This document shows, in pieces, positions 670-35,769 of a stretch of 38,441 bases of DNA. Below the pieces are notes generated by a model. That model searched no databases. It was not told the DNA's origin and saw nothing but the letters and a program-made list of their open reading frames with translations. Each line of letters opens with the position of its first letter. Position 1 is the stretch's first letter. The position numbers and the translations under genes were made by a program. This stretch comes from Streptomyces viridosporus (lineage in GTDB: Bacteria > Actinomycetota > Actinomycetes > Streptomycetales > Streptomycetaceae), in assembly GCF_002078235.1 (NCBI RefSeq), contig NZ_MSGP01000023.1, positions 1 to 38,441 of the forward strand, written 5' to 3'.

Positions 670-2094
670 TCAGCGGTCCTGCGGGGCGTCCGCGGGAGCG
701 GCCGGGCGCGCGCGGCGCCTGCGGACGAGGAACGCGGCCGCGGCGGCGAGCGCCAGCAGGGATCCGGCCGCGAGGGCGAGGGGAAGGGCGGGGGCGCCGC
801 GGTCGTCCTCCCGCGAGGCGCCCGCGACGGGCTCGGAGGACGGGTCCGGCGGGGCCGGGGAGGTCTCGGCCGGGGTCGGCGCCGAGGTGCTGCCGAGGTC
901 CGGCAGCGCGGGCAGTTCGGCGTCCCCGGTGAGGGCGACGGCCAGGGAGACCGGGTCCATCCCGGTCCCCCCGGGGTACATGCCGCCGAAGGCGTCGGCT
1001 CCCCGGGAGGTGAGCTTCGCGGGGGCCTCGTCCACCCGGACCAGGCCGTCCTCCGGCTTCAGGTCCTTCGCCGTGAAGGTGACCAGCGGGACCTTCTCGC
1101 CGCTGTGACCGGGGCTCTTCACATCGGCGTACAGGGTGCCCCGGTCGCCCTCGACGGTGACGCGGACGCCGCCGAGTTCCAGGTCGAGGCCGTGCGCGCC
1201 GGTGAAGCGGACCACGCCCTCGAAGGAGGCGGTCAGTTCGCCGCCCCGGTACGTCCCCTTCCCGCCAGGGAAGCGGAAGAGGGCGCCGCCGTCGAGGGCT
1301 CCCGAGGACAGGGTCCACTTCCCCTTGGCGATGTCACCGGTGACGTACTCCCGGAAGGTGCGGCGCACGCCCCAGTCGACGGCGCCGTCGGCGAGTTCGC
1401 TCCCGGAGTCGTCCGCGGACTTCTTCGGCCGGGGCGCCTCGGACGTCGGCGTGCTCGACGGCTGCCGCCGCTCCGCCTGCCGTACGTCCGCCGAGAGGCT
1501 GACCGGGTCCAGGGCGGTGCCGGCCGTGTAGTACCCGGCGAAGGACCGGGCGCCCTGGGCGGTGAGCGTGGCGGGGAGGTGGTGGAGGACGACGGAGGTG
1601 CCGCCGCCGCGCATGTCGATCCCGCCGAGGGAGAGGGAGGCGAAGGGCACCTGTCGGGACGTCGTGACCGCCCCGGTGTCCTTCGCCTTGCCGGTGACGT
1701 CCACGTAGAGCGTGCCGGTGGAGCCGGAGATGCTCACGGTGGGACGGCTGAGGGTGAGGTCGAGTTGGTGCGTCCCGGTCCCGGTCCGGTGGCCGACGAA
1801 GCGCACCCCGCCGGAGAAGGCGGCGCGGAAGGCGCCCGTGCCGCCGTCGTAGGTGCCCGTCGCCGAGTGGAAGCGGAAGCCGCTGCCGCCGACGGTGGCC
1901 GCGCCGCCGGTGAGGGAGTAACTCCCCTGCGCGACGGGGCCGGTGACGTAGCGCTGGAAGGACGTCTTGATGCCCCAGTCAAGCCGGCCGCCCTGGACCG
2001 CGCGGCTCTCGGCGTGCGCCGCGGCGGCCGGCAGGAGCGCTCCCAGAACGGCCGCGCAGACCACGGTGACCAGGGCACGTAGGCGGGTGGGCAT
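670..2094 (-). CDS. htaA: HtaA-domain haem-binding surface protein with two domains and a C-terminal anchor
   Basis: 474 residues. The signal peptide ends near AAAHA (residues 1-28). Two HtaA domains follow: the first starts at LDWGIKTSFQRYV (about 37-205), the second at VDWGVRRTFREYV (about 238-395). A Pro/Ser/Thr spacer leads to a hydrophobic segment near 440-460 and an RRRR stop-transfer tail. There is no LPXTG, so the protein is membrane- rather than sortase-anchored. Family knowledge: HtaA proteins take haem from haemoproteins and hand it to HmuT. It is the first gene of a leftward pair and diverges from hmuT across a 103-base region that holds an iron box, so induction under iron starvation is expected. 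The symbol is given by family; the orthology is inferred. Confidence 0.9.
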   Translation of the reverse strand: MPTRLRALVTVVCAAVLGALLPAAAAHAESRAVQGGRLDWGIKTSFQRYVTGPVAQGSYSLTGGAATVGGSGFRFHSATGTYDGGTGAFRAAFSGGVRFVGHRTGTGTHQLDLTLSRPTVSISGSTGTLYVDVTGKAKDTGAVTTSRQVPFASLSLGGIDMRGGGTSVVLHHLPATLTAQGARSFAGYYTAGTALDPVSLSADVRQAERRQPSSTPTSEAPRPKKSADDSGSELADGAVDWGVRRTFREYVTGDIAKGKWTLSSGALDGGALFRFPGGKGTYRGGELTASFEGVVRFTGAHGLDLELGGVRVTVEGDRGTLYADVKSPGHSGEKVPLVTFTAKDLKPEDGLVRVDEAPAKLTSRGADAFGGMYPGGTGMDPVSLAVALTGDAELPALPDLGSTSAPTPAETSPAPPDPSSEPVAGASREDDRGAPALPLALAAGSLLALAAAAAFLVRRRRARPAAPADAPQDR

Positions 2095-2129
2095 GACAGG
2101 TCCTCCGGAGGCGACAGCCGGTAGCGAAC

Positions 2130-2148
2130 GAAGGTAAGGCTAACCTAA
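2130..2148. promoter_or_regulatory. Iron box (DtxR/IdeR/DmdR-type operator) in the divergent htaA-hmuT promoter
   Basis: The 19 bases GAAGGTAAGGCTAACCTAA match the palindromic DtxR-family consensus TTAGGTTAGGCTAACCTAA at 16 of 19 positions. The right half-site is perfect. It lies 36 bases upstream of the htaA start and 50 upstream of the hmuT start, so one site could repress both directions. The repressor is not in the window; DmdR1/IdeR is inferred from the genus. Confidence 0.85.
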
Positions 2149-2197
2149 GCTGCACCTCAGGCAACATCCACCACGGACGGAAGGAACGGACGGGACC

Positions 2198-3229
2198 GTG
2201 CGACGCTTGCGCACCCAACTGGCGGGAGCACTGCTGTCCGTGCTCGCCCTCACGTTCACCGCGACCGCCTGCGAAGGCTCCTCCGGTGCGGCCGCGCCCA
2301 CCGGACCGGGCACGACCGCGAAGGCGGGTACGACCGCGGAGCCCGACCGCGTGGAACCCCTCGCGACCCCGCCGAGACCCGACTTCCCGGTCACCGTCCG
2401 CTCCGCGGACGGCAGGACGGTGAGGATCGAGCGGGCCGAGCGCCTGGTCCCGCTCTCCGGCGGCCTCAGCGAGATCGTGTTCACGCTCGGCCTCGGGGAC
2501 CGGGTCGTGGCCCGTGACGTCACCGCCACCTTCGCGCAGGCCGCCGAACTCCCCGTGGTCACCCGGGGACACGACGTCTCCGCCGAGAGCGTGCTGTCGC
2601 TCCGGCCGGACCTGGTGATCGCCGAGTCCACCACCGGCCCGGCGGAGGCCATGGACCAGATCCGCGCCGCCGGGACACCCGTCCTCGTCGTCGACCCGGC
2701 CACCGGCCTCGACGACGTCGGCCCGCGCATCGCGTCCGTCGCCGAGGCGCTCGGCGTACCGGCCGCGGGCGAGGAGCTGACCCGCCGCACCGAGCGGCGG
2801 ATCGCGGCCGTGACCGGGTCGGTTCCGCGGAAGGGGCCCCGGCCGCGGGTCGCCTTCCTCTACCTGCGCGGCTCCGCCTCCGTGTACCTCATCGGCGGCC
2901 GGGACTCGGGCGCGACCTCGCTGATCGAGGCGGCCGGGGCGGTCGACGCCGGGGCCGCGTCGGGACTGGAGAAGGACTTCACCGCCATCACCGGCGAGGC
3001 ACTGGTGAAGGCGGCACCCGACGCGATCCTGGTGATGGCCGCGGGACTGGAGTCCGTCGGGGGCGTGGACGGGCTGGTGGAGATCCCCGGTGTGGCGCAG
3101 ACCCCGGCCGGGATGGACCGGCGCATCGTCTCCGTGGAGGACGGCGTGCTGCTCACCTACGGGCCGCGCACCGACCGGGTGCTGAAGTCGGTCGTCGCGC
3201 AGCTGTACGGCGAGGACGGTGACGCGTGA
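2198..3229 (+). CDS. hmuT: Haem ABC transporter substrate-binding lipoprotein
   Basis: 343 residues from a GTG start. It has a lipoprotein signal peptide with a lipobox at about residues 22-25 (TATAC, acylated Cys25), then a flexible Thr/Ala/Gly-rich tether. The body is a type III periplasmic-binding fold: SGGLSEIVFTLGLGDRVVARD is the usual first lobe motif of the FecB/HmuT group, followed by SLRPDLVIAES and a long inter-lobe helix. The domain order and length suit the family. It overlaps the permease gene by 4 bases (GTGA), so translation is coupled. The adjacent HtaA genes make haem a more likely substrate than a siderophore. It diverges from htaA behind the iron box. Confidence 0.9.
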   Translation: MRRLRTQLAGALLSVLALTFTATACEGSSGAAAPTGPGTTAKAGTTAEPDRVEPLATPPRPDFPVTVRSADGRTVRIERAERLVPLSGGLSEIVFTLGLGDRVVARDVTATFAQAAELPVVTRGHDVSAESVLSLRPDLVIAESTTGPAEAMDQIRAAGTPVLVVDPATGLDDVGPRIASVAEALGVPAAGEELTRRTERRIAAVTGSVPRKGPRPRVAFLYLRGSASVYLIGGRDSGATSLIEAAGAVDAGAASGLEKDFTAITGEALVKAAPDAILVMAAGLESVGGVDGLVEIPGVAQTPAGMDRRIVSVEDGVLLTYGPRTDRVLKSVVAQLYGEDGDA

Positions 3230-4345: not shown

Positions 4346-5179
4346 ATGATCCGCCTGCGCAACCATCCCGTCCCGCCGGCCGCCCCCGAGCCCGGTGACG
4401 TCCTCGCCGAGGCCGAGGGGCTGTCCGTCCGGCTCGGCGCCCGCGAGGTCCTCGCCGACGTGGACATCGCCGTCCGGGCCGGCGAGGTGCTCGCCCTGGT
4501 CGGCCCCAACGGGGCGGGTAAATCGACCCTGTTGAGCGCCCTCGCCGCCGATCTGCCGCCTACCGCCGGGACGGTGCGGATCCACGGGCGCCCGGCGCCG
4601 TCCTGGTCCGCGCCCGAACTCGCGCTGCGCCGTGCCGTGCTGCCCCAGTCGGCCTCCCTCTCCTTCCCGTTCACGGTCGAGGAGGTGGTCCGCATGGGCC
4701 GGGCGCCCTGGGCCGCCGCCCGTCCCGAGGACGACGACGCGATCGTGGCCGAGGCGATGGCCGCCACCGAGGTCACCGGTTTCGCCGCGCGCCCCTTCTC
4801 CGCGCTCAGCGGCGGCGAGCGGGCCCGGGTCGCGCTCGCCCGGGTGCTCGCCCAGCGCGCTCCCCTGCTGATGCTCGACGAGCCGACCGCCGCGCTGGAC
4901 CTCAGGCACCAGGAACTGGTGCTGCGGTTGTGCCGGGCGAGGGCGCGCGCCGGGGACGCGGTGGTCGTGGTGGTGCACGACCTCGGTCTCGCGGCGGCCC
5001 ACGCGCACCGGGTGGCGGTCCTGCGCGGCGGCCGGGTCGCGGCCGACGGACCACCGGAGGAGGTCTTCACCGAACGGCTGCTGTCGGAGGTGTACGACCA
5101 GCCCGTCGAGGTGTTCCCGCACCCGCGGACCGGGGCGGTGCTGGTGCTCCCGGACCGGGGCGGACCGGTCTCCGCCTGA
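4346..5179 (+). CDS. hmuV: Haem ABC transporter ATP-binding protein
   Basis: 277 residues from ATG, preceded by an AAGGAGG ribosome site. It has all the motifs of an ABC ATPase: Walker A GPNGAGKST at about 53-61, Q-loop LPQSASLSF, signature LSGGERARVALARVLAQ at about 152-168, Walker B LLMLDEPTAALD at about 174-185, and the switch His in VVHDLGLAA. The YDQPVEVFPHPRTGAVLVLP tail is typical of HmuV. It powers haem import through HmuU. It is the last gene of the hmuTUV set; the next gene starts 215 bases away and looks unrelated. Confidence 0.93.
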   Translation: MIRLRNHPVPPAAPEPGDVLAEAEGLSVRLGAREVLADVDIAVRAGEVLALVGPNGAGKSTLLSALAADLPPTAGTVRIHGRPAPSWSAPELALRRAVLPQSASLSFPFTVEEVVRMGRAPWAAARPEDDDAIVAEAMAATEVTGFAARPFSALSGGERARVALARVLAQRAPLLMLDEPTAALDLRHQELVLRLCRARARAGDAVVVVVHDLGLAAAHAHRVAVLRGGRVAADGPPEEVFTERLLSEVYDQPVEVFPHPRTGAVLVLPDRGGPVSA

Positions 5180-6465: not shown

Positions 6466-7200
6466 TCAGCGGTGCAGCGGCCAGGCCGTGCCCGCGTGGT
6501 CGGACTGCTCGCCGACGTGGCGGGCGCAGGAGTCGGTGAGGACCTCCAGCAGGCTCAGCGGGTCCGGCAGCGGGTGCTCCGGGCCGCGGACCCAGTGCAC
6601 CGACCGGTCGTCGTCGCCGGGCAGACGGGCCGGGGGCACGAGGACGTAGGAGCCGCGGCAGTGCCAGCGCAGGCCGGGGTGCTCGTCCATGGTCTCCGGG
6701 TGGCAGTCCAGCTCGCACGGCCACCACTCGTCCTCGTCCTCGGGGGTGCCGCGGGTAAGGGTGAAGAACAGCATCCGGCCGTCGTCGCTCTCGGCGACGG
6801 GGCCGACCTCGATCCCGGCCTCGAGCAGGCGCTCGAGCGCCTCCCGGCCGGCGTCCAGGGGGACGTCGAGGACGTCGTGCATCATGCCGGTCGCGGTGAT
6901 GAAGTTCGCCTGCGGCTGGTGGCGGGCCCAGCGCTCGATCTGGGCGCGGTCGGTGGTCGACTGGGTCTGCCAGGCGAACGACACCGGGTGCCGGGCGGGG
7001 GTGGGACAGCCGACCCGGTCGCAGGAGCACTGGTAGCCGGCGGGGTGGGCGGCGGGTGCCAGCGGCAGTCCCGCGTCGGCGGCGGCGAGCAGCAGGGCCT
7101 CGCGGCCGCCTTCGTCGGCGGCCTGCTTCGGGCGGCGTTTCTGCAGCCACTGGGAGAGTTTGCCCTGTCGGCCGGTTCGGCCTCCGAACGCCGCGCTCAT
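6466..7200 (-). CDS. Prim-pol N-terminal-domain-like protein (bifunctional DNA primase/polymerase family)
   Basis: 244 residues from ATG at 7200 behind GGAG. The sequence resembles the short stand-alone prim-pol-like proteins of Streptomyces: ALLLAAADAGLPLAPAAHPAG, a Cys cluster (CSCDRVGCPTPARHPVS), then WARHQPQANFITATGMMHDVLDVPLDAGREALERLL, and a C-terminal block with HCRGSYVLVPPA. In prim-pol proteins the D-x-D and His residues of the AEP fold bind metal; here DVLDVPLD is the likely counterpart. No helicase domain is attached, so a replication role is doubtful. It is convergent with the lipoprotein gene and divergent from the phosphodiesterase gene. Confidence 0.75.
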   Translation of the reverse strand: MSAAFGGRTGRQGKLSQWLQKRRPKQAADEGGREALLLAAADAGLPLAPAAHPAGYQCSCDRVGCPTPARHPVSFAWQTQSTTDRAQIERWARHQPQANFITATGMMHDVLDVPLDAGREALERLLEAGIEVGPVAESDDGRMLFFTLTRGTPEDEDEWWPCELDCHPETMDEHPGLRWHCRGSYVLVPPARLPGDDDRSVHWVRGPEHPLPDPLSLLEVLTDSCARHVGEQSDHAGTAWPLHR

Positions 7201-24337: not shown

Positions 24338-24391
24338 CGGCCCGGACGTCGCGATCGACTCGGACGTCGCATTCGGCCCGGACATGGCGGA
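24338..24391 (+). repeat. 18-base imperfect tandem repeat
   Basis: CGGACGTCGCGATCGACT is followed by CGGACGTCGCATTCGGCC and CGGACATGGCGGAGCCCG, three 18-base units. In one rightward frame they read IGPDVA-IDSDVA-FGPDMA, like left-handed beta-helix hexapeptide repeats. No complete acyltransferase gene surrounds them, so this is a remnant or a coincidence. Confidence 0.6.
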
Positions 24392-24419
24392 GCCCGGGAG
24401 TCGTATCCAGCTCCCGGGC
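24392..24419. terminator. GC-rich hairpin downstream of the permuted tRNA-like elements
   Basis: GCCCGGGAG and CTCCCGGGC form a 9-bp perfect stem with a 10-base loop. For leftward transcription through the two tRNA-like elements this is the first strong stem, so it is the likely 3' end of that RNA. There is no T-run. Confidence 0.6.
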
Positions 24420-24461
24420 CCCTGGGGATGCCACCCAGTTGCGCACGCCGGCGGCGTTTAA

Positions 24462-24569
24462 GAGGACGGATCAGTCATCATGCCGTCGTGTTCTTCCGTT
24501 GAACTACCGCACCAGGCAAGAGGTGCAGACGAGAGTCGAACTCGCATCCGACGGCGTTCGTCCGTCCCC
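24462..24569 (-). ncRNA. Circularly permuted tRNA-like element B
   Basis: Reading leftward, the parts of a tRNA occur in the order 3' half, linker, 5' half. T arm: GCGAG (24545-24541), loop TTCGACT, CTCGT (24533-24529). Acceptor 3' strand CTGCACC (24528-24522) is followed by linker TCTTGCCT. Acceptor 5' strand GGTGCGG (24513-24507) pairs with it over all 7 positions (one G-T). D arm: GTTC (24504-24501), loop AACGGAA, GAAC (24493-24490). Anticodon stem: CGACGG (24488-24483) pairs with CCGTCG (24554-24549) before the T arm. The anticodon loop is open, and the two outer ends pair again: GGACGGA (24567-24561) with TCCGTCC (24470-24464), extendable to 9 bp. No U33 or clear anticodon and no encoded CCA. 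Chance seems very unlikely for all these stems together. Confidence 0.72.
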
Positions 24570-24594
24570 GGTCGATCCGGCGATCGGCGGCGAT

Positions 24595-24739
24595 GCTGAG
24601 ACTGGAGCGAGAGTCTGAGATTGACCGCGGCTGCCTCTGCCGTGTTGGGCCACCCCGGCCCGGTGTCGGGCTGTTGTGCCGGGGGAAGGACTCGAACCTT
24701 CACTGTCACCGCTTCTTCAGGCTGAACTTCAGTGTCAGC
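24595..24739 (-). ncRNA. Circularly permuted tRNA-like element A
   Basis: Same permuted order as element B, read leftward. T arm: GAAGG (24701-24697), loop TTCGAGT, CCTTC (24689-24685). Acceptor 3' strand CCCCGGC (24684-24678) with A as discriminator, then a 17-base linker. Acceptor 5' strand GCCGGGG (24659-24653) is a perfect 7-bp partner. D arm: GCC (24650-24648) and GGC (24635-24633), loop containing GG. Anticodon stem: GCCGC (24631-24627) with GCGGT (24712-24708), one G-T. The outer ends close the element: GCTGACACTG (24739-24730) pairs with CAGTCTCAGC (24604-24595) except at one position. The sequence before the anticodon stem contains CTGAAGA, like a Phe (GAA) anticodon loop, but the loop is not continuous. 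Confidence 0.72.
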
Positions 24740-24790
24740 TTGCGCTCATCACGCGAACCGGTCCTCAATCCGGCCCGCGCCTGTCGCGCA

Positions 24791-24812
24791 CCCCCGCGCT
24801 CGCACGCGGGGG
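24791..24812 (-). terminator. Hairpin terminator after the leftward gene ending at 24841
   Basis: CCCCCGCG (24791-24798) and CGCGGGGG (24805-24812) form an 8-bp perfect stem with a 6-base loop, about 30 bases past the stop codon. It would separate that gene from the tRNA-like elements. Confidence 0.75.
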
Positions 24813-24840
24813 CGTTCGTGGATGTTGCTCGCGGCCGGTG

Positions 24841-25572
24841 TCAGCCGAACAGGTAGCCGAACACCGCCTCGCCGACCCGCTGGTCGGTGACCTCGGCGCC
24901 GTTGGCCTCCTCGCGGGCGAACTTCACCGCCTGCTGGAGCTTCTCGACCCGCTCCACCAGTTCGTTCACCCGCCGCGCCGGGAGCGCCCCGGAGAACTTC
25001 ACGGTCGTCCAGTACCCGATGGGCACGTCCTCGTAGTACACCTCGACCTGCGCCGGGTGCTTGTCGGTCGCCTCCGCCTTGACGTGGTTGCGCGGGACCT
25101 TCTTGGTGCGGATCGTGCGCACCGGGTCCGTCTTCCACCAGTCCGTGGACGGGTCGCGGGACCAGGACTCGGCGGTGTCGAGCGTGGGGAGCTTCCTGAC
25201 GAAGGTGTGGAGGTCGGTGAGCTGCTTCTCCAGGAACAGCAGGTGGCTCACCGGGACGTCGGCGAGGATCGTCCGCCCGTCGACCGTGACGTCCGCGCGG
25301 GCCGTGCAGTTCGCCCAGTCCTTGGTGGCGGTCACGTCGAACAGCCGGGTCAGCGACGCGGACATCTCCCGCAGCACGTCCTCGGCCTGCACCTGCACCC
25401 GCGTGGACTCGGGCGGCAGTTGCTCGCCCTCCTCGTCCTTCGGCTGGTACGTGCGCGAGATGCCGGACAGCAGCGCCGGCTTCTGCACCTTGTGGTGCGC
25501 CGCGGTGATGTCCTGGAGCGACTTGCTCTTGACGCCCTTTTCGACAGCGATGATCTGATTGAGCTTCGCCAC
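24841..25572 (-). CDS. Conserved hypothetical protein (DUF7873-like)
   Basis: 243 residues from a GTG at 25572 behind AAGGGGG; an upstream in-frame extension lacks a sensible ribosome site. It starts VAKLNQIIAVEKGVKSKSLQDITAAHHKVQKPALLSGISRTYQP, a conserved opening of a bacterial family I believe is called DUF7873. The rest is mixed alpha/beta with VPVSHLLFLEKQLTDLHTFVRKLPTLD in the middle and a coiled-coil-like helix near the end (RRVNELVERVEKLQQAVKFAREEANG), followed by a short C-terminal segment. Soluble, no signal peptide, no catalytic motif that I can name. It stands alone, with a terminator behind it. Confidence 0.82.
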   Translation of the reverse strand: MAKLNQIIAVEKGVKSKSLQDITAAHHKVQKPALLSGISRTYQPKDEEGEQLPPESTRVQVQAEDVLREMSASLTRLFDVTATKDWANCTARADVTVDGRTILADVPVSHLLFLEKQLTDLHTFVRKLPTLDTAESWSRDPSTDWWKTDPVRTIRTKKVPRNHVKAEATDKHPAQVEVYYEDVPIGYWTTVKFSGALPARRVNELVERVEKLQQAVKFAREEANGAEVTDQRVGEAVFGYLFG

Positions 25573-25999
25573 TGGGCCCCCCTTCGAACAAGCGGGAACG
25601 TACCCCACCCGATGGCACGCGTGCATTCCTTTTATCCCGAGGGGGCGTGCTGCGGCCGGTCACGTACGCGGCCCGGATCTCGGAACCCCGGTGATCGCCG
25701 GGGGCCCGGGGAGGCGCGGCGCGATGTGGGCAGACTCCTTCCGGGGAAATCCGCTCGGCGGGTCCACCCCTTTCCTCGGCCCGCCCTTCCCCTCGGCGCA
25801 CACCGCTCGCCCGGGCGGAAAACCCACGGGCCGTTCCCGGCCCTTCTCAAAAGATCCCCCTTTTCCGTGCTCACACGGCCGGCTTTTCTGTCAAGGGCGA
25901 CGTTTCCCACATCCGGGGGCCCTTGAGCAGCACCCCTGACCAGTGAGGGCGCGGTGTTACGGTGGATATCGCCAGCTCTCAACGTCTGAGGTCGGAGAA
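25573..25999. other. Intergenic region, divergent promoters
   Basis: About 430 bases between the leftward hypothetical gene and the rightward sigma-factor unit. No coding frame looks real. The last 60 bases hold GTGTTACGGTGGATATC, with GATATC as a possible -10 for the leader ORF. Elsewhere I see only GC-rich sequence. Confidence 0.5.
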
Positions 26000-28253: not shown

Positions 28254-28363
28254 CACTGAAGGCATGGCACGGCCCGATACAATCGCGCCCGCCGCCGCCC
28301 GGCCCGGACGGTGGCGCGTCGTCGCGCCCACGTCCTCTCCTGGGCTGTCCGGAGGTGAGAGCC

Positions 28364-31300
28364 ATGTCCATCTCGTACCTGTTCAGCACCTACCACGTGC
28401 CGCCGGACGGCTTCGTCGACCGCACCAGAGAGGTCAGCAGACTCCTCAACTTCATGGAGTCGGGCTGTCGGGTCTGCACGGTGTACGGACTGGGCGGCGT
28501 CGGGAAGAGCGCACTCGCCTACCGGCTGGCGCAGACCGGGGGCACCTCGTCGCGCCGCACGATCTGGGTCTCCCTCACCAACGCGCCCCCGGCCGACGCA
28601 TTCCTGCACGGGCTGCTGTCGCTGTTCACCGACCGGGACACCGCGTCCCCGGGGACACCGCTGGAACAGCTCATCACCTGCCTCGACGACGAGCCGTCCC
28701 TCATCGTGCTGGACAACCTGGAGGTCCTCCTCGACTCGGAGCGGTTCTCCGGGGAGTTCCGGCCCGGGTACGAGGAGTACGGCACCCTGCTGCGCTGCCT
28801 GGCGTCCGAACCCCACCGCTCGACGGTACTGATCACCTCGCGTGAGAACCCGTCGTTCCTGCGGGAGACGAGCGCCAGCGTGCGCGCCATGCACCTGCAG
28901 GGCCTGCCCAAGGTGCCGGCCCGGACGCTCCTGGCCCGGCGCGGCCTGCGCGGCGACGTACGGCTGCGCCGGGACCTCGTCAGCAGGTACGACGGCAACC
29001 CGCTGGCCATACAACTCGTCTCCGACCTGATCCTCGACATACACGACGGGAGCATCGCCCGCTTCGTGGAGTCCGGCGAATTCCTCTTCGGGGAACTGGA
29101 AGGACTGTTCCACCAGCACTTCGAACGGCTGACGCACGCCGAGCGACTGGTGCTGTTCCGGCTCGCCGCGGCCCGCCGCCCCCTCACGGTCCGCGAGATC
29201 TCGGCCGAACCGCGGATCGGCACCCCGTCGTCCGCGGCGACGCTGCTGCAGCGTCTGCGGCGCAGGTCCCTGGTCCAGGAGAGCAACGGCTCCTTCTACC
29301 TCCAGTACATGATCCAGGAGTTCGTGACGGCACGGCTCAACCTGGCCTGCGTCGAGGAGGTCCGCACCGGCGAACCGGACGTGCTCACCCGGTTCGCGCT
29401 CGTGGACGCCGCCATGCCGGAGCACGTACGGGAGGCCCAGCGCCGCTTCCTGTCCCAGCCGATCATGAACATGCTGCAGGACCGGCTGGGCTCCGCCAGC
29501 CAGGTCGCCCCGCGGCTGCTCTCCCTGCTGGACGCCTCCCGCGTCGGCTCGGAGGCGTACGGCACGTTCCTCGCGGCGAACGCCCTCTCGATCCACCACG
29601 CGTGGACCAGCGACCTCTCCGGCCTCGACCTCTCCCACCTGGTGCTGCGCCAGGTGGACCTGTCCGGCATCCGGCTCTCGCACGCCACGGCCCGGATGAC
29701 GGAGTTCTCCGGATGCCGCTTCCCCGGCGTCTACCACTACGTCTTCGGCATGGACTTCTCGCCGGAGGGCAAGGCCGCGGCGATCGGGCAGAGCGGCGGT
29801 TCGGTCCTGCTGGTCAACGTGCCGGACGGCACGCCGCTGCGCACCCTCCCGTGGGAGGCGGACTGGATCAGGGCCGTGGCCTTCTCCCCCGACGGCGGAC
29901 GGCTCGCCTGCTCCGACGAGAAGGGCCGGCTGCGCGTGTGGGACCTGGCCACCAACCTCCCCACCGACTATCCCGGCCACGACCGGCAGACCCGCAGCCT
30001 GGTCTTCTCGGCCGACGGGCGCGTCCTGTTCAGCGCGGGCGAGGACCGGCGCATCCTCGCCTGGTCCGTCGAGCCCCGGGCGAGCGAACCACGGGTGCTG
30101 TGCGCGATCGACGCGGAGATCTGGGGACTGCACAGCGCGCCGGCTTCGACCCTCATCGCCGCCGCCTGCGACGAGGTGTGCGTACGCATGTGGGACACCG
30201 CCACCGGCGAGGAGGTCTCCCTGGAGGGGCGCGCGCCGGTGGCCGGCCGGTGCCTGCGCTTCTCCACTGACGGCAGGCACGTGTTCGTCGGATGCGACGA
30301 CGGCGCGATCCGGGTCTGGAACACCGAGAGCCGCAAGCTCGTCGGCACCCTCCTCGGACACACCTCGTCGGTGTGGGCCGTCGCGGTGACCCGGAACGCC
30401 TCCGGGGAAGTGCTCATCACCGGCAGCCACGACGAGACGATCCGGGTGTGGAACATCGCCGACCCGTCGGCCGCGCGCTGCGAGCGGGTGATCAACAGCC
30501 TCGACGGCCCGGTGTGGCCGGTCTCCGCCGACAGCGAGGGGCAGTACTTCGCCACCGTCGGCCGCAACTCCACCATCCGTTTCTGGGACACGGCCGACGC
30601 CGAATGCCTGGAGGTACTGGCCGGCAGCTCGGGGACGGTACTGAGCGTGGCGTCGTCACCGGACGGCCGCTTACTGGCCTCGGGGGGCCACGACCGACTC
30701 GTGCGCCTCTGGGACGCCGCGACCGGCGACTGCCTGGCCGAACTGGGCGGCCACACGGCGGGGGTGCGGGCGGTCGCGTTCCGCCCGCAGGGCAACGTCC
30801 TGGCGACGGCGAGCGAGGACTGGGACGTACGCCTGTGGGACCTGCGGACGAACCAGCCGTCCGCGGTGCTCACCGGTTCGCGCAACTGGCTGTGGACGGT
30901 CGCCTTCGAACCGAACGGGCACAGTCTGGCGGCCGCCGGCGCCGACGCCGTCATCAGGATCTGGGACATCCAGGGGCGGGGCGGCGTACGGGCGTTCACC
31001 GGGCACGAGGCACGGGTACGGGCCGTCCAGTACACCGGGGACGGACAGCGTCTGGTGTCGGTCGGGGAGGACGGGCAGACCCGCCTGTGGCAGGTCGCGA
31101 GCGGCGGCTCCGAACTCCTCGGCACCGTCGAGGGCCACGTCACCAGTGTGTGCGTCCTCGCCGGCGACCTGTGCGTGACCGGGAGCAGTGACGGGGCGCT
31201 GCGCCTGTGGGACCTGACCTCCCGGACGCTGCTCCGCCAGGCCCGGGCGCACGAGGGCGCGGTGCTGGCCCTGCTGGCCGCGCCCGGCGGGAACACCTTC

Positions 31301-32170
31301 CTGAGCGCGGGCCAGGACGGCCACCTGCGGGTGTGGGGGCAGGACGGGCTGCGCCTGCACGGGATGTCCCGCACGGCCGCCGGCACGGTCCGCTCCCTCG
31401 CCTGGCACTCCGACGGCGCGTACGTGGCGGCCGCGGGCGGCGACGAGGCGATCCGCCGTTACACCTACCCGGACCTGGAAGAAGTCGAGCCCTTCCGGGT
31501 GCCCAGGCAGTTCGAGGGCTTCGACATCAGCGGCTGCCAGGGCATCACCCCCGCCGAGCACCACTCGCTCGTCGCCCTCGGAGCGATCGACTCGCCGTCC
31601 GTCGCGAGGCCGGCCGTCCCCCACCGCACCACGCGTCCCGCACCGCGGCACGAGGAGCCCCGGGCCCCGAGGGCGCTCACCAGGCCGGCCCGGATGTTCA
31701 TCTCGTACTCGCACCGTGACGACGAGTTCCGCTCCCAGCTGGAGAAGCACCTGAGCACTCTGCGCTACCGCGGGCTGCTCGACTCCTGGTCCGACCGGCA
31801 GATCCGGCCGGGCGACGACTGGGCGGGTTCGATAGACGAGAACCTGGAATCGGCCGACATCATCCTCCTGCTCGTCAGCGCCGACTTCCTGGCCTCCGAG
31901 TACTGCCGGGACGTGGAGATGCGCAGGGCCCTGGAGCGGCACCGGGAAGGGACCGCGCGCGTCGTCCCCGTGGTGCTCCGCGCGTGCGACTGGAACGGCT
32001 TCCCCTTCGGCTCGTTCCAGGCCCTGCCGCGGGACGGCCGGCCGGTCACCGCCTGGCCGAACCCCGACGAGGCCTTCACCGACATCGCCGTGTGGCTGCG
32101 CACGACGCTGGAGGACATCGCCCAGTCCCACCGACCCGGCGGGACCACCACGGAACGGAGCCAGTCTTGA
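28364..32170 (+). CDS. NLR-like STAND protein: NB-ARC ATPase, WD40 propeller, C-terminal TIR
   Basis: 1268 residues from ATG at 28364, seven bases after GGAGGT. The NTPase has Walker A GLGGVGKS (42-49), Walker B SLIVLDNLE (about 112-120), and a sensor TVLITSRE (about 154-161); a winged-helix region follows to about 330. A short pentapeptide-like link (LSGLDLSHLVLRQVDLSGIRLSHA) leads to about 13 WD40 repeats (460-1070) with recurring RLWD/RVWN ends. A Pro/Ala linker joins the TIR domain (about 1111-1250): RMFISYSHRDDEFRSQLEKHLS, then SADFLASEYCRDVEMRRALE, with likely catalytic Glu1185. Such STAND-TIR proteins act in bacterial immunity: the repeats sense, the NTPase oligomerises, the TIR degrades or modifies NAD+. 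A TTA codon at 30671 implies bldA dependence. TIR at the C-terminus is less common than at the N-terminus. Confidence 0.92.
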   Translation: MSISYLFSTYHVPPDGFVDRTREVSRLLNFMESGCRVCTVYGLGGVGKSALAYRLAQTGGTSSRRTIWVSLTNAPPADAFLHGLLSLFTDRDTASPGTPLEQLITCLDDEPSLIVLDNLEVLLDSERFSGEFRPGYEEYGTLLRCLASEPHRSTVLITSRENPSFLRETSASVRAMHLQGLPKVPARTLLARRGLRGDVRLRRDLVSRYDGNPLAIQLVSDLILDIHDGSIARFVESGEFLFGELEGLFHQHFERLTHAERLVLFRLAAARRPLTVREISAEPRIGTPSSAATLLQRLRRRSLVQESNGSFYLQYMIQEFVTARLNLACVEEVRTGEPDVLTRFALVDAAMPEHVREAQRRFLSQPIMNMLQDRLGSASQVAPRLLSLLDASRVGSEAYGTFLAANALSIHHAWTSDLSGLDLSHLVLRQVDLSGIRLSHATARMTEFSGCRFPGVYHYVFGMDFSPEGKAAAIGQSGGSVLLVNVPDGTPLRTLPWEADWIRAVAFSPDGGRLACSDEKGRLRVWDLATNLPTDYPGHDRQTRSLVFSADGRVLFSAGEDRRILAWSVEPRASEPRVLCAIDAEIWGLHSAPASTLIAAACDEVCVRMWDTATGEEVSLEGRAPVAGRCLRFSTDGRHVFVGCDDGAIRVWNTESRKLVGTLLGHTSSVWAVAVTRNASGEVLITGSHDETIRVWNIADPSAARCERVINSLDGPVWPVSADSEGQYFATVGRNSTIRFWDTADAECLEVLAGSSGTVLSVASSPDGRLLASGGHDRLVRLWDAATGDCLAELGGHTAGVRAVAFRPQGNVLATASEDWDVRLWDLRTNQPSAVLTGSRNWLWTVAFEPNGHSLAAAGADAVIRIWDIQGRGGVRAFTGHEARVRAVQYTGDGQRLVSVGEDGQTRLWQVASGGSELLGTVEGHVTSVCVLAGDLCVTGSSDGALRLWDLTSRTLLRQARAHEGAVLALLAAPGGNTFLSAGQDGHLRVWGQDGLRLHGMSRTAAGTVRSLAWHSDGAYVAAAGGDEAIRRYTYPDLEEVEPFRVPRQFEGFDISGCQGITPAEHHSLVALGAIDSPSVARPAVPHRTTRPAPRHEEPRAPRALTRPARMFISYSHRDDEFRSQLEKHLSTLRYRGLLDSWSDRQIRPGDDWAGSIDENLESADIILLLVSADFLASEYCRDVEMRRALERHREGTARVVPVVLRACDWNGFPFGSFQALPRDGRPVTAWPNPDEAFTDIAVWLRTTLEDIAQSHRPGGTTTERSQS

Positions 32171-35359: not shown

Positions 35360-35769
35360 GGCAGACGAGTCGGGCTGTACGCCGGGTTCTGTTCCCCGGG
35401 GTCCTCGCGGGCCCCGGGGCGACGGCCATCCATCTAGGACCGGTGTCGCCACCGGCCTCGTGCGGTCTACCCGCGGACTCGGGCGGGCAGCCCTCGAACG
35501 TCCGCGCAGAGCGCTTTTCACGGCGCTCCTCTTGACCTTGCTCCGGGTGGGGTTTACCTAGCCGCCTGAGTCACCTCAGGCGCTGGTGGTCTCTTACACC
35601 ACCGTTTCACCCTTACCGGGGACCGAGGTCCCCGGCGGTCTGCTTTCTGTGGCACTGTCCCGCGGGTCACCCCGGGTGGCCGTTAGCCACCACCCTGCCC
35701 TGTGGAGCCCGGACGTTCCTCGGGAAGCCCCTGGGGGCTCCACGCGGCCGTCCGCCCGGCTCGTCTGCC
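35360..35769 (-). ncRNA. rnpB: RNase P RNA
   Basis: Catalytic RNA that trims the 5' ends of precursor tRNAs. Ends are set by stem P1: GGCAGACGAG near 35769 pairs with CTCGTCTGCC near 35360. The leftward reading shows the bacterial type A core: GGGGCTTCCCGAGGAACGTC and CGGGCTCCACAGGGCAGGGTG near the 5' end, the GACCGCC region, ACAGAAAGCAGACC, AGGTAAGGGTGAAACGGTGG and, near the 3' end, the GGCGTACAGCCCGACTC segment. The length is normal for Streptomyces. TAGCAT about ten bases upstream of the 5' end is a probable -10. The exact ends are estimated from P1 pairing. Confidence 0.95.

Follow-up and report, generated by a model that had tools for sequence, protein, structure and literature searches.

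The window, that is, the whole stretch of 38,441 nucleotides of Streptomyces viridosporus DNA that was analysed, carries on its minus strand a gene of the uncharacterised, phage-type family DUF7873 (PF25283). Directly 3' of this gene lies a single non-coding element, conserved and about 430 nt long. Two permuted tRNA-like domains at 24425-24744 (minus strand), each atop a long basal stem of its own, are the modules of this element, and in both the parts follow one another in the order T arm, acceptor 3' strand, loop, acceptor 5' strand, D arm. The conserved parts extend beyond the interval 24462-24739 described in the earlier note: module 2 reaches 24425, and hairpins lie at 24389-24422 and 24789-24814. 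The features are listed here; percentages give the share of paired cells in the alignments described below.

24841-25572, minus strand: DUF7873 gene (PF25283), 243 amino acids; Pfam E value 6e-122, 406.5 bits (gathering cutoff of 27 passed)
24789-24814, minus strand: 5' hairpin, between DUF7873 and module 1; fold z score -4.08
24595-24739, minus strand: module 1, basal stem plus domain 1 (element 1); 32/32 consensus pairs in the unconstrained fold
24685-24701, minus strand: T arm of domain 1, with TTCGAGT as its loop; all cells (100%) have a paired T stem
24678-24684, minus strand: acceptor 3' strand of domain 1, pairing with 24653-24659 (7/7; 98.3% of cells; 7/7 pairs change on both sides)
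24653-24659, minus strand: acceptor 5' strand of domain 1, pairing with 24678-24684
24633-24650, minus strand: D arm of domain 1, placed by sequence; in the register counted, 88.9% of cells are paired
24430-24591, minus strand: module 2, basal stem plus domain 2 (element 2); full match to model R1 at 24425-24593 with 160.8 bits, the window being an R1 training sequence
24529-24545, minus strand: T arm of domain 2 (loop TTCGACT); 99.5% of cells paired
24522-24528, minus strand: acceptor 3' strand of domain 2, pairing with 24507-24513 (98.9% of cells; 7/7 pairs change on both sides)
24507-24513, minus strand: acceptor 5' strand of domain 2, pairing with 24522-24528
24490-24504, minus strand: D arm of domain 2; 89.5% of cells paired
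24389-24422, minus strand: 3' hairpin with a GGATA loop; fold z score -4.68

Architecture of the element and its neighbour gene

The earlier note had reported two permuted tRNA-like elements on the minus strand, and the base-pair counts hold. Element 1, a term used here for the permuted domain of that note, runs from 24739 down to 24595. Its T stem GAAGG/CCTTC pairs at 5/5 positions, its acceptor strand CCCCGGC (24684-24678) pairs with the later GCCGGGG (24659-24653) at 7/7, the D stem GCC/GGC pairs at 3/3 with two registers possible, and the anticodon-type stem (24712-24708 with 24631-24627) pairs at 5/5, including one G-U pair. In element 2 (24569 to 24462), the T stem is paired at 5/5 positions including one G-U, the acceptor strands CTGCACC (24528-24522) and GGTGCGG (24513-24507) at 7/7 including one G-U, the D stem GTTC/GAAC at 4/4 and the anticodon-type stem (24553-24549 with 24488-24484) at 5/5. 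Neither domain has an anticodon loop; at its place both strands diverge into the long, imperfect basal stem. The unconstrained minimum-energy fold recovers every consensus pair of module 1 and, for module 2, 36 of 44. Folding energy by itself says little about the modules, with z scores of -0.06 for 24595-24739 and -2.45 for 24462-24569, the inner part of module 2.

The domains had been proposed to be either tRNA-mimicking RNAs or permuted tRNA genes of a new kind. The first description is borne out by the permuted order, the covariation of the arms, the missing anticodon loop and the acceptor ends, which are closed by loops of no more than 4 nt in some loci, whereas the second finds no support: ARAGORN found no tRNA in the window, the anticodon strands enter basal stems, and the nearest Rfam family is YrlA. 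In the permuted tRNA genes of algae and archaea the 3' half is likewise encoded before the 5' half (PMC3978253). Here, in contrast, an anticodon loop is not possible, the strands continue into covarying basal stems, and no such gene is called by ARAGORN.

A hairpin at the position of the 5' hairpin was seen by eye in other bacteria and in several actinophages, though not in all phages. The strongest 3' hairpin carries GGNTA in 92 of the 109 loci examined and is likely the end of the RNA or a protein site. In many loci the basal strands of module 1 (24593-24744, minus strand, in the window) show a period-3 pattern of alternating CTN-like and purine-rich triplets; this pattern, which can be read as alternating basic and hydrophobic residues, is probably a by-product of the helix. 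Simple-consensus scans of 24350-25650, which cover Streptomyces signals poorly, revealed neither a sigma-70-type promoter nor a T-tailed terminator.

The start of the DUF7873 gene, a GTG at 25572, was set by comparison with homologues and gives a protein of 243 amino acids. The AlphaFold model (pLDDT 91.7, pTM 0.75) predicts a compact alpha-beta protein in which a long beta hairpin bears a conserved ATDKHPAQ segment. A search with this structure gave no convincing match among solved or viral structures; the protein had no PHROG match and no sequence relative in the PDB, and a Pfam scan of it gave no TROVE match. At least 7,423 homologues were found among the 7,997 candidates scored. In the open-licence literature we found neither the name DUF7873 nor a description of a DUF7873-linked or Ro60-free permuted RNA.

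Conservation and covariation

We collected 162 DUF7873 loci (116 bacterial and 46 viral) by searching genomes, annotated phages and IMG/VR. The bacterial loci are the best-scoring ones (for example, the best 80 of 534 in one search; all 80 best named relatives of the gene come from Streptomyces), and six pairs share their downstream DNA, leaving 110 distinct loci. The viral loci comprise 14 from 73 phage records and 32 from IMG/VR; two had no downstream DNA, and the other 44 correspond to 39 distinct loci. Domains were scored by a strict rule that asks for a TTCRA loop, a T stem of at least 4 pairs, a permuted acceptor paired at 7/7 and a perfect D stem of 3 to 4 pairs. By this rule, every one of the 116 bacterial loci (110 distinct) has at least one permuted domain after DUF7873, as do 38 of the 46 viral loci: two domains were found in 87 bacterial and 23 viral loci, one in 29 and 15, and none in 0 and 8, respectively. 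In the first 560 nt after DUF7873 of all 162 loci, the strict finder detected 264 domains on the sense strand versus 1 on the opposite strand, and five dinucleotide shuffles of the same stretches yielded 0, 0, 1, 1 and 0. Across the 38-kb window it returned exactly two matches, and these are the two reported domains.

Domain 2 was kept in 115 of the 116 bacterial loci as scored, whereas domain 1 was deleted or replaced by a plain hairpin in 27 of them (L032, L072, L030 and others), and therefore two mimics are not always needed. The exception, L085, was scored as lacking domain 2 since the expression for the core motif matched elsewhere; if its single strict domain is taken as domain 2, the loss of domain 1 rises to 28/116.

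The earlier note had named stems without covariation as an outcome that would speak against it; compensatory changes were looked for, and the result supports the note. Column covariation was calculated from 70 non-redundant two-domain loci (of 110). The strongest covarying columns belong to acceptor, T and D stems, for which the choice of loci was biased, but also to pairs of the basal stems, on which loci were not selected. Alignments were then evaluated for module 2 (38 sequences, from 69 extracted) and module 1 (33 sequences, from 65 extracted). Changes on both sides of the pair were observed for 42 of 44 pairs in module 2 and for 22 of 32 pairs in module 1. Module 2 contained 406 double-sided cells, versus 143.2 ± 11.0 in shuffled alignments and 87 to 145 in slid controls; module 1 contained 118, versus 33.4 ± 5.1 and 27 to 42. 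The slid controls weigh more, since shuffles do not keep relatedness. The basal helices of both modules covary. Pairing was weaker in the outermost helix (69% of cells) and the anticodon-type stem (58%) of module 2, and in the anticodon-type stem (72%) and one further pair (59%) of module 1.

A covariance model, R1, was built from module 2; its E values are only approximate, and tandem tRNAs can produce partial matches that are about as strong. Among the 44 viral loci for which downstream DNA was available, R1 matched the full-length module in 40 and part of it in the other 4 (L122, L136, L151 and L161). In a held-out set, made by removing 20 training loci and 3 duplicates (L141, L143 and L155) from the 44, full-length matches were obtained in 18 of 21 loci, the weakest in two Vibrio phages and a Microcoleus phage (rough E values from 3e-6 to 7e-6). 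No strict domain was present in eight viral loci, namely L126, L136, L137, L145, L146, L157, L158 and L159; among them, R1 matched L126, L137, L145, L146 and L159 at full length and L136 in part. We regard it as virtually certain that the permuted element is a real conserved structure.

Linkage to DUF7873 in bacteria and phages

Gene and RNA are linked in both directions, in bacteria as well as in phages, and this constant partner gene and the spread through phages go beyond what the earlier note had described. Of 61 related genomes, 32 carry DUF7873, and an R1 match adjoins the gene in all 32; 30 of these matches are full length, and the partial ones are in G010 and G051 (at a contig end in G051). 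In the 29 DUF7873-negative relatives there was no full-length R1 match among the matches listed. One more, weak full-length match (G028:C1097, E value 1.4e-5) lies away from DUF7873. When viral contigs were scanned for the RNA motif first, 16 matches were found, of which R1 confirmed 9; DUF7873 adjoins 9 of these 9, and 5 are on contigs that had not been collected earlier. No DUF7873 was present in the DNA examined around the 7 unconfirmed matches. From this locked pairing alone, we infer that DUF7873 may bind RNA.

When 65 Streptomyces loci were compared over long flanks, no family other than DUF7873 and the RNA occurred in more than 12 of them, and the window's own neighbours did not recur in 80 loci, except for one distant match to an oxygenase (1/80). 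Therefore, the DUF7873-RNA unit appears to travel alone. The pairing ranges from soil bacteria to giant phages, and in several phages the unit lies inside tRNA arrays. One relative has two units in a single genome (G038:C1, 3313518-3314596 and 6402157-6403222).

If the element is transcribed, this would probably often occur jointly with DUF7873, because the basal strand of module 1 starts no more than about 20 nt from the DUF7873 stop codon in several phages. Cotranscription is not universal, since the RNA of L137 (4935-5217) is on the strand opposite DUF7873, about 1.2 kb downstream, and that of Microcoleus phage My-WqHQDG (L126, 4738-6939) has its best R1 match at 6787-6939, about 1.8 kb from the gene. 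In the latter locus, DUF7873 and the RNA are set apart by a HEARO RNA (4941-5150) and a gene of 1278 nt, as if a mobile element had come between them.

Relation to Y RNAs and competing explanations

Y RNAs are known to associate with Ro60, and one of them, YrlA, carries tRNA-type modifications. YrlA (RF02553) is also the Rfam family nearest to the element, with 32.4 bits (E value 5.9e-5) for element 2 and 20.0 bits (E value 0.24) for element 1. Both scores are below the gathering score of 69, but this score was passed in 0 of the 61 genomes, copies adjacent to TROVE included, and therefore discriminates poorly here; annotation that relies on the Rfam threshold would miss such RNAs. The element shares with YrlA a permuted tRNA-like domain with a closed acceptor end, a long, covarying basal stem formed by the 5' and 3' ends, and the frequent tandem arrangement beside a partner gene. 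It differs in that the neighbouring gene is DUF7873 and not a TROVE (Ro60) gene, in that it scores 32.4 and 20.0 bits where TROVE-adjacent copies reach up to 58.4, and in having conserved basal stems, a core motif and a 3' hairpin of its own. A Y-RNA-like architecture is, in our view, highly probable.

In YrlA, Ro60/Rsr is bound by the basal stem and PNPase by the tRNA-like domain (PMC8394870), and PMC7790460 describes an rsr-yrlBA-rtcBA operon. By analogy, the basal stems of the element may hold DUF7873, and its mimics may recruit or occupy tRNA-handling enzymes. We favour, with a probability of roughly 0.6, one element of about 430 bases that is paired with DUF7873 and whose predicted transcript, a Y-RNA-like RNA, likely binds the DUF7873 protein and would offer two tRNA-shaped handles to tRNA-binding proteins of the host. 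On this view the unit most likely does without Ro60 and represents either a relative or an analogue of the Y-RNA particle that phages have spread. Judged from the sequences, a DUF7873-RNA ribonucleoprotein is predicted with fair confidence. Putative handles or decoys for tRNA-binding proteins, suggested by analogy with YrlA, are a more tentative role for the mimics. The fuller version has slightly better than even odds: a second, Ro60-free Y-RNA particle, composed of DUF7873 and an obligate twin mimic RNA and spread by phages of actinobacteria, proteobacteria and cyanobacteria, would capture tRNA-handling enzymes by means of its closed permuted mimics. The most likely benefit would be control of tRNA or of RNA decay during infection, because the unit often lies inside phage tRNA arrays, and bacteria such as S. 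viridosporus may have kept a copy from phage-type elements. If this is true, the permuted Y-RNA layout is a reusable module able to take another protein partner, DUF7873 with its thousands of homologues gains a concrete, testable role, and experiments could address why tRNA mimics occur in phages that have tRNA arrays.

If these were normal Y RNAs of the YrlA type, working for Ro60 in trans, DUF7873 would be an auxiliary neighbour. The identical permuted layout and the best Rfam match fit this explanation, and Ro60 could indeed act in trans in 22 of the 32 DUF7873-positive relatives, because a TROVE match is present elsewhere in these genomes (11 of the 29 negative relatives have one as well), although the matches cover only a short part of the model. 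However, no TROVE match was found in the genome of S. viridosporus itself, in 10 of the 32 positive relatives or in 25 of 30 DUF7873 virus records, some of which are fragments; 5 of the 30 had one. Moreover, relatives with TROVE have separate permuted RNAs close to it, and linkage is with DUF7873 and not with TROVE. We consider service to Ro60 in trans unlikely. In L179, for example, tandem permuted RNAs (1299-1358 and 1526-1579) are located just upstream of a frame at 1665-3101 within which, by coordinates, the TROVE match (2505-2687) falls, and L180 and L187, from the same genus, have tandem permuted YrlA-like RNAs near TROVE matches, below the Rfam gathering threshold. The earlier note knew of no permuted tRNA-like RNA in Streptomyces; since same-genus genomes also bear tandem copies beside TROVE (Ro60-type) genes, the genus holds two kinds of twin RNA, one with TROVE and one with DUF7873.

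In permuted two-piece tmRNA, too, the T arm and the acceptor 3' strand precede the acceptor 5' strand. The element could be a permuted, tmRNA-like precursor whose acceptor ends are cleaved by RNase P and by 3' processing, which would leave an RNA of several pieces with CCA ends that might be aminoacylated. The base next to the acceptor strand is a discriminator A in 103 of 110 first domains. Among first domains, 30 of the 87 bacterial and 11 of the 23 viral ones encode NCCA; among second domains, 1 of 87 and 10 of 23 do so, respectively. For first domains and viral second domains this is far above chance, which we estimate at a few per cent. The encoded NCCA may be a relic of tRNA genes from which the domains descend, or a sign that the RNA is processed to end in CCA. 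On the other hand, NCCA is absent from 57 of 87 bacterial and 12 of 23 viral first domains, and in some loci the acceptor loops are as short as 4 nt, which leaves no room for an NCCA tail and points to a closed end there. The tmRNA covariance model had no match in the window, and there are two domains per element here. Such a precursor is a somewhat poorer candidate than YrlA in trans.

The element might instead be chiefly a cis-acting 3'-untranslated structure that controls the DUF7873 mRNA, the RNA having no function of its own. This would agree with the constant place 3' of the gene and with its near contact with the stop codon in several phages, but not with the opposite strand of the RNA in L137 or the distance behind the HEARO element in L126, and two tRNA-shaped domains would probably exceed the needs of such control. 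We therefore assign this explanation only a small chance.

Decayed or rearranged tandem tRNA genes, or mere chance, have next to no probability left: true tandem tRNAs do imitate the pattern, but the window has no tRNA, tRNAs have no basal stems that covary, and for the alignment as a whole both are refuted by basal-stem covariation and the shuffles. Ordinary tRNAs disrupted by rearrangement, which the earlier note had itself raised against its proposal, are thereby not borne out, whereas descent from tandem tRNAs is possible. The imitation was seen in the genome of S. viridosporus outside the window, where the two remaining R1 matches are false ones produced by a tRNA-Asn pair (L210, G000:C9) and a Val-Val-Val-Cys cluster (L211, G000:C722), which also gave false YrlA-type matches; covariance searches can thus mistake tandem tRNAs for permuted RNAs.

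GOLLD and ROOL are large structured RNAs in Rfam that are carried by phages and whose function is unclear. The element resembles them in being a large, structured, phage-borne RNA of unclear function but differs in that neither family matched at the gathering level, whether in the window or in the 20 loci scanned; the only matches there were tRNA, tRNA-Sec, tmRNA, HEARO and RNase P RNA, and for the window itself RNase P RNA alone was listed. The tmRNA-model match (89 bits) in Gordonia phage Phendrix (L118, 2063-2591) lies within a tRNA array and is unannotated in the record. Elsewhere in the window, a class A RNase P RNA (35362-35763, minus strand, 290 bits) is encoded about 10 kb from the element, and a 1271-amino-acid frame (28355-32170, plus strand) that combines WD40 repeats with a TIR domain at its C terminus is possibly a defence or signalling protein.
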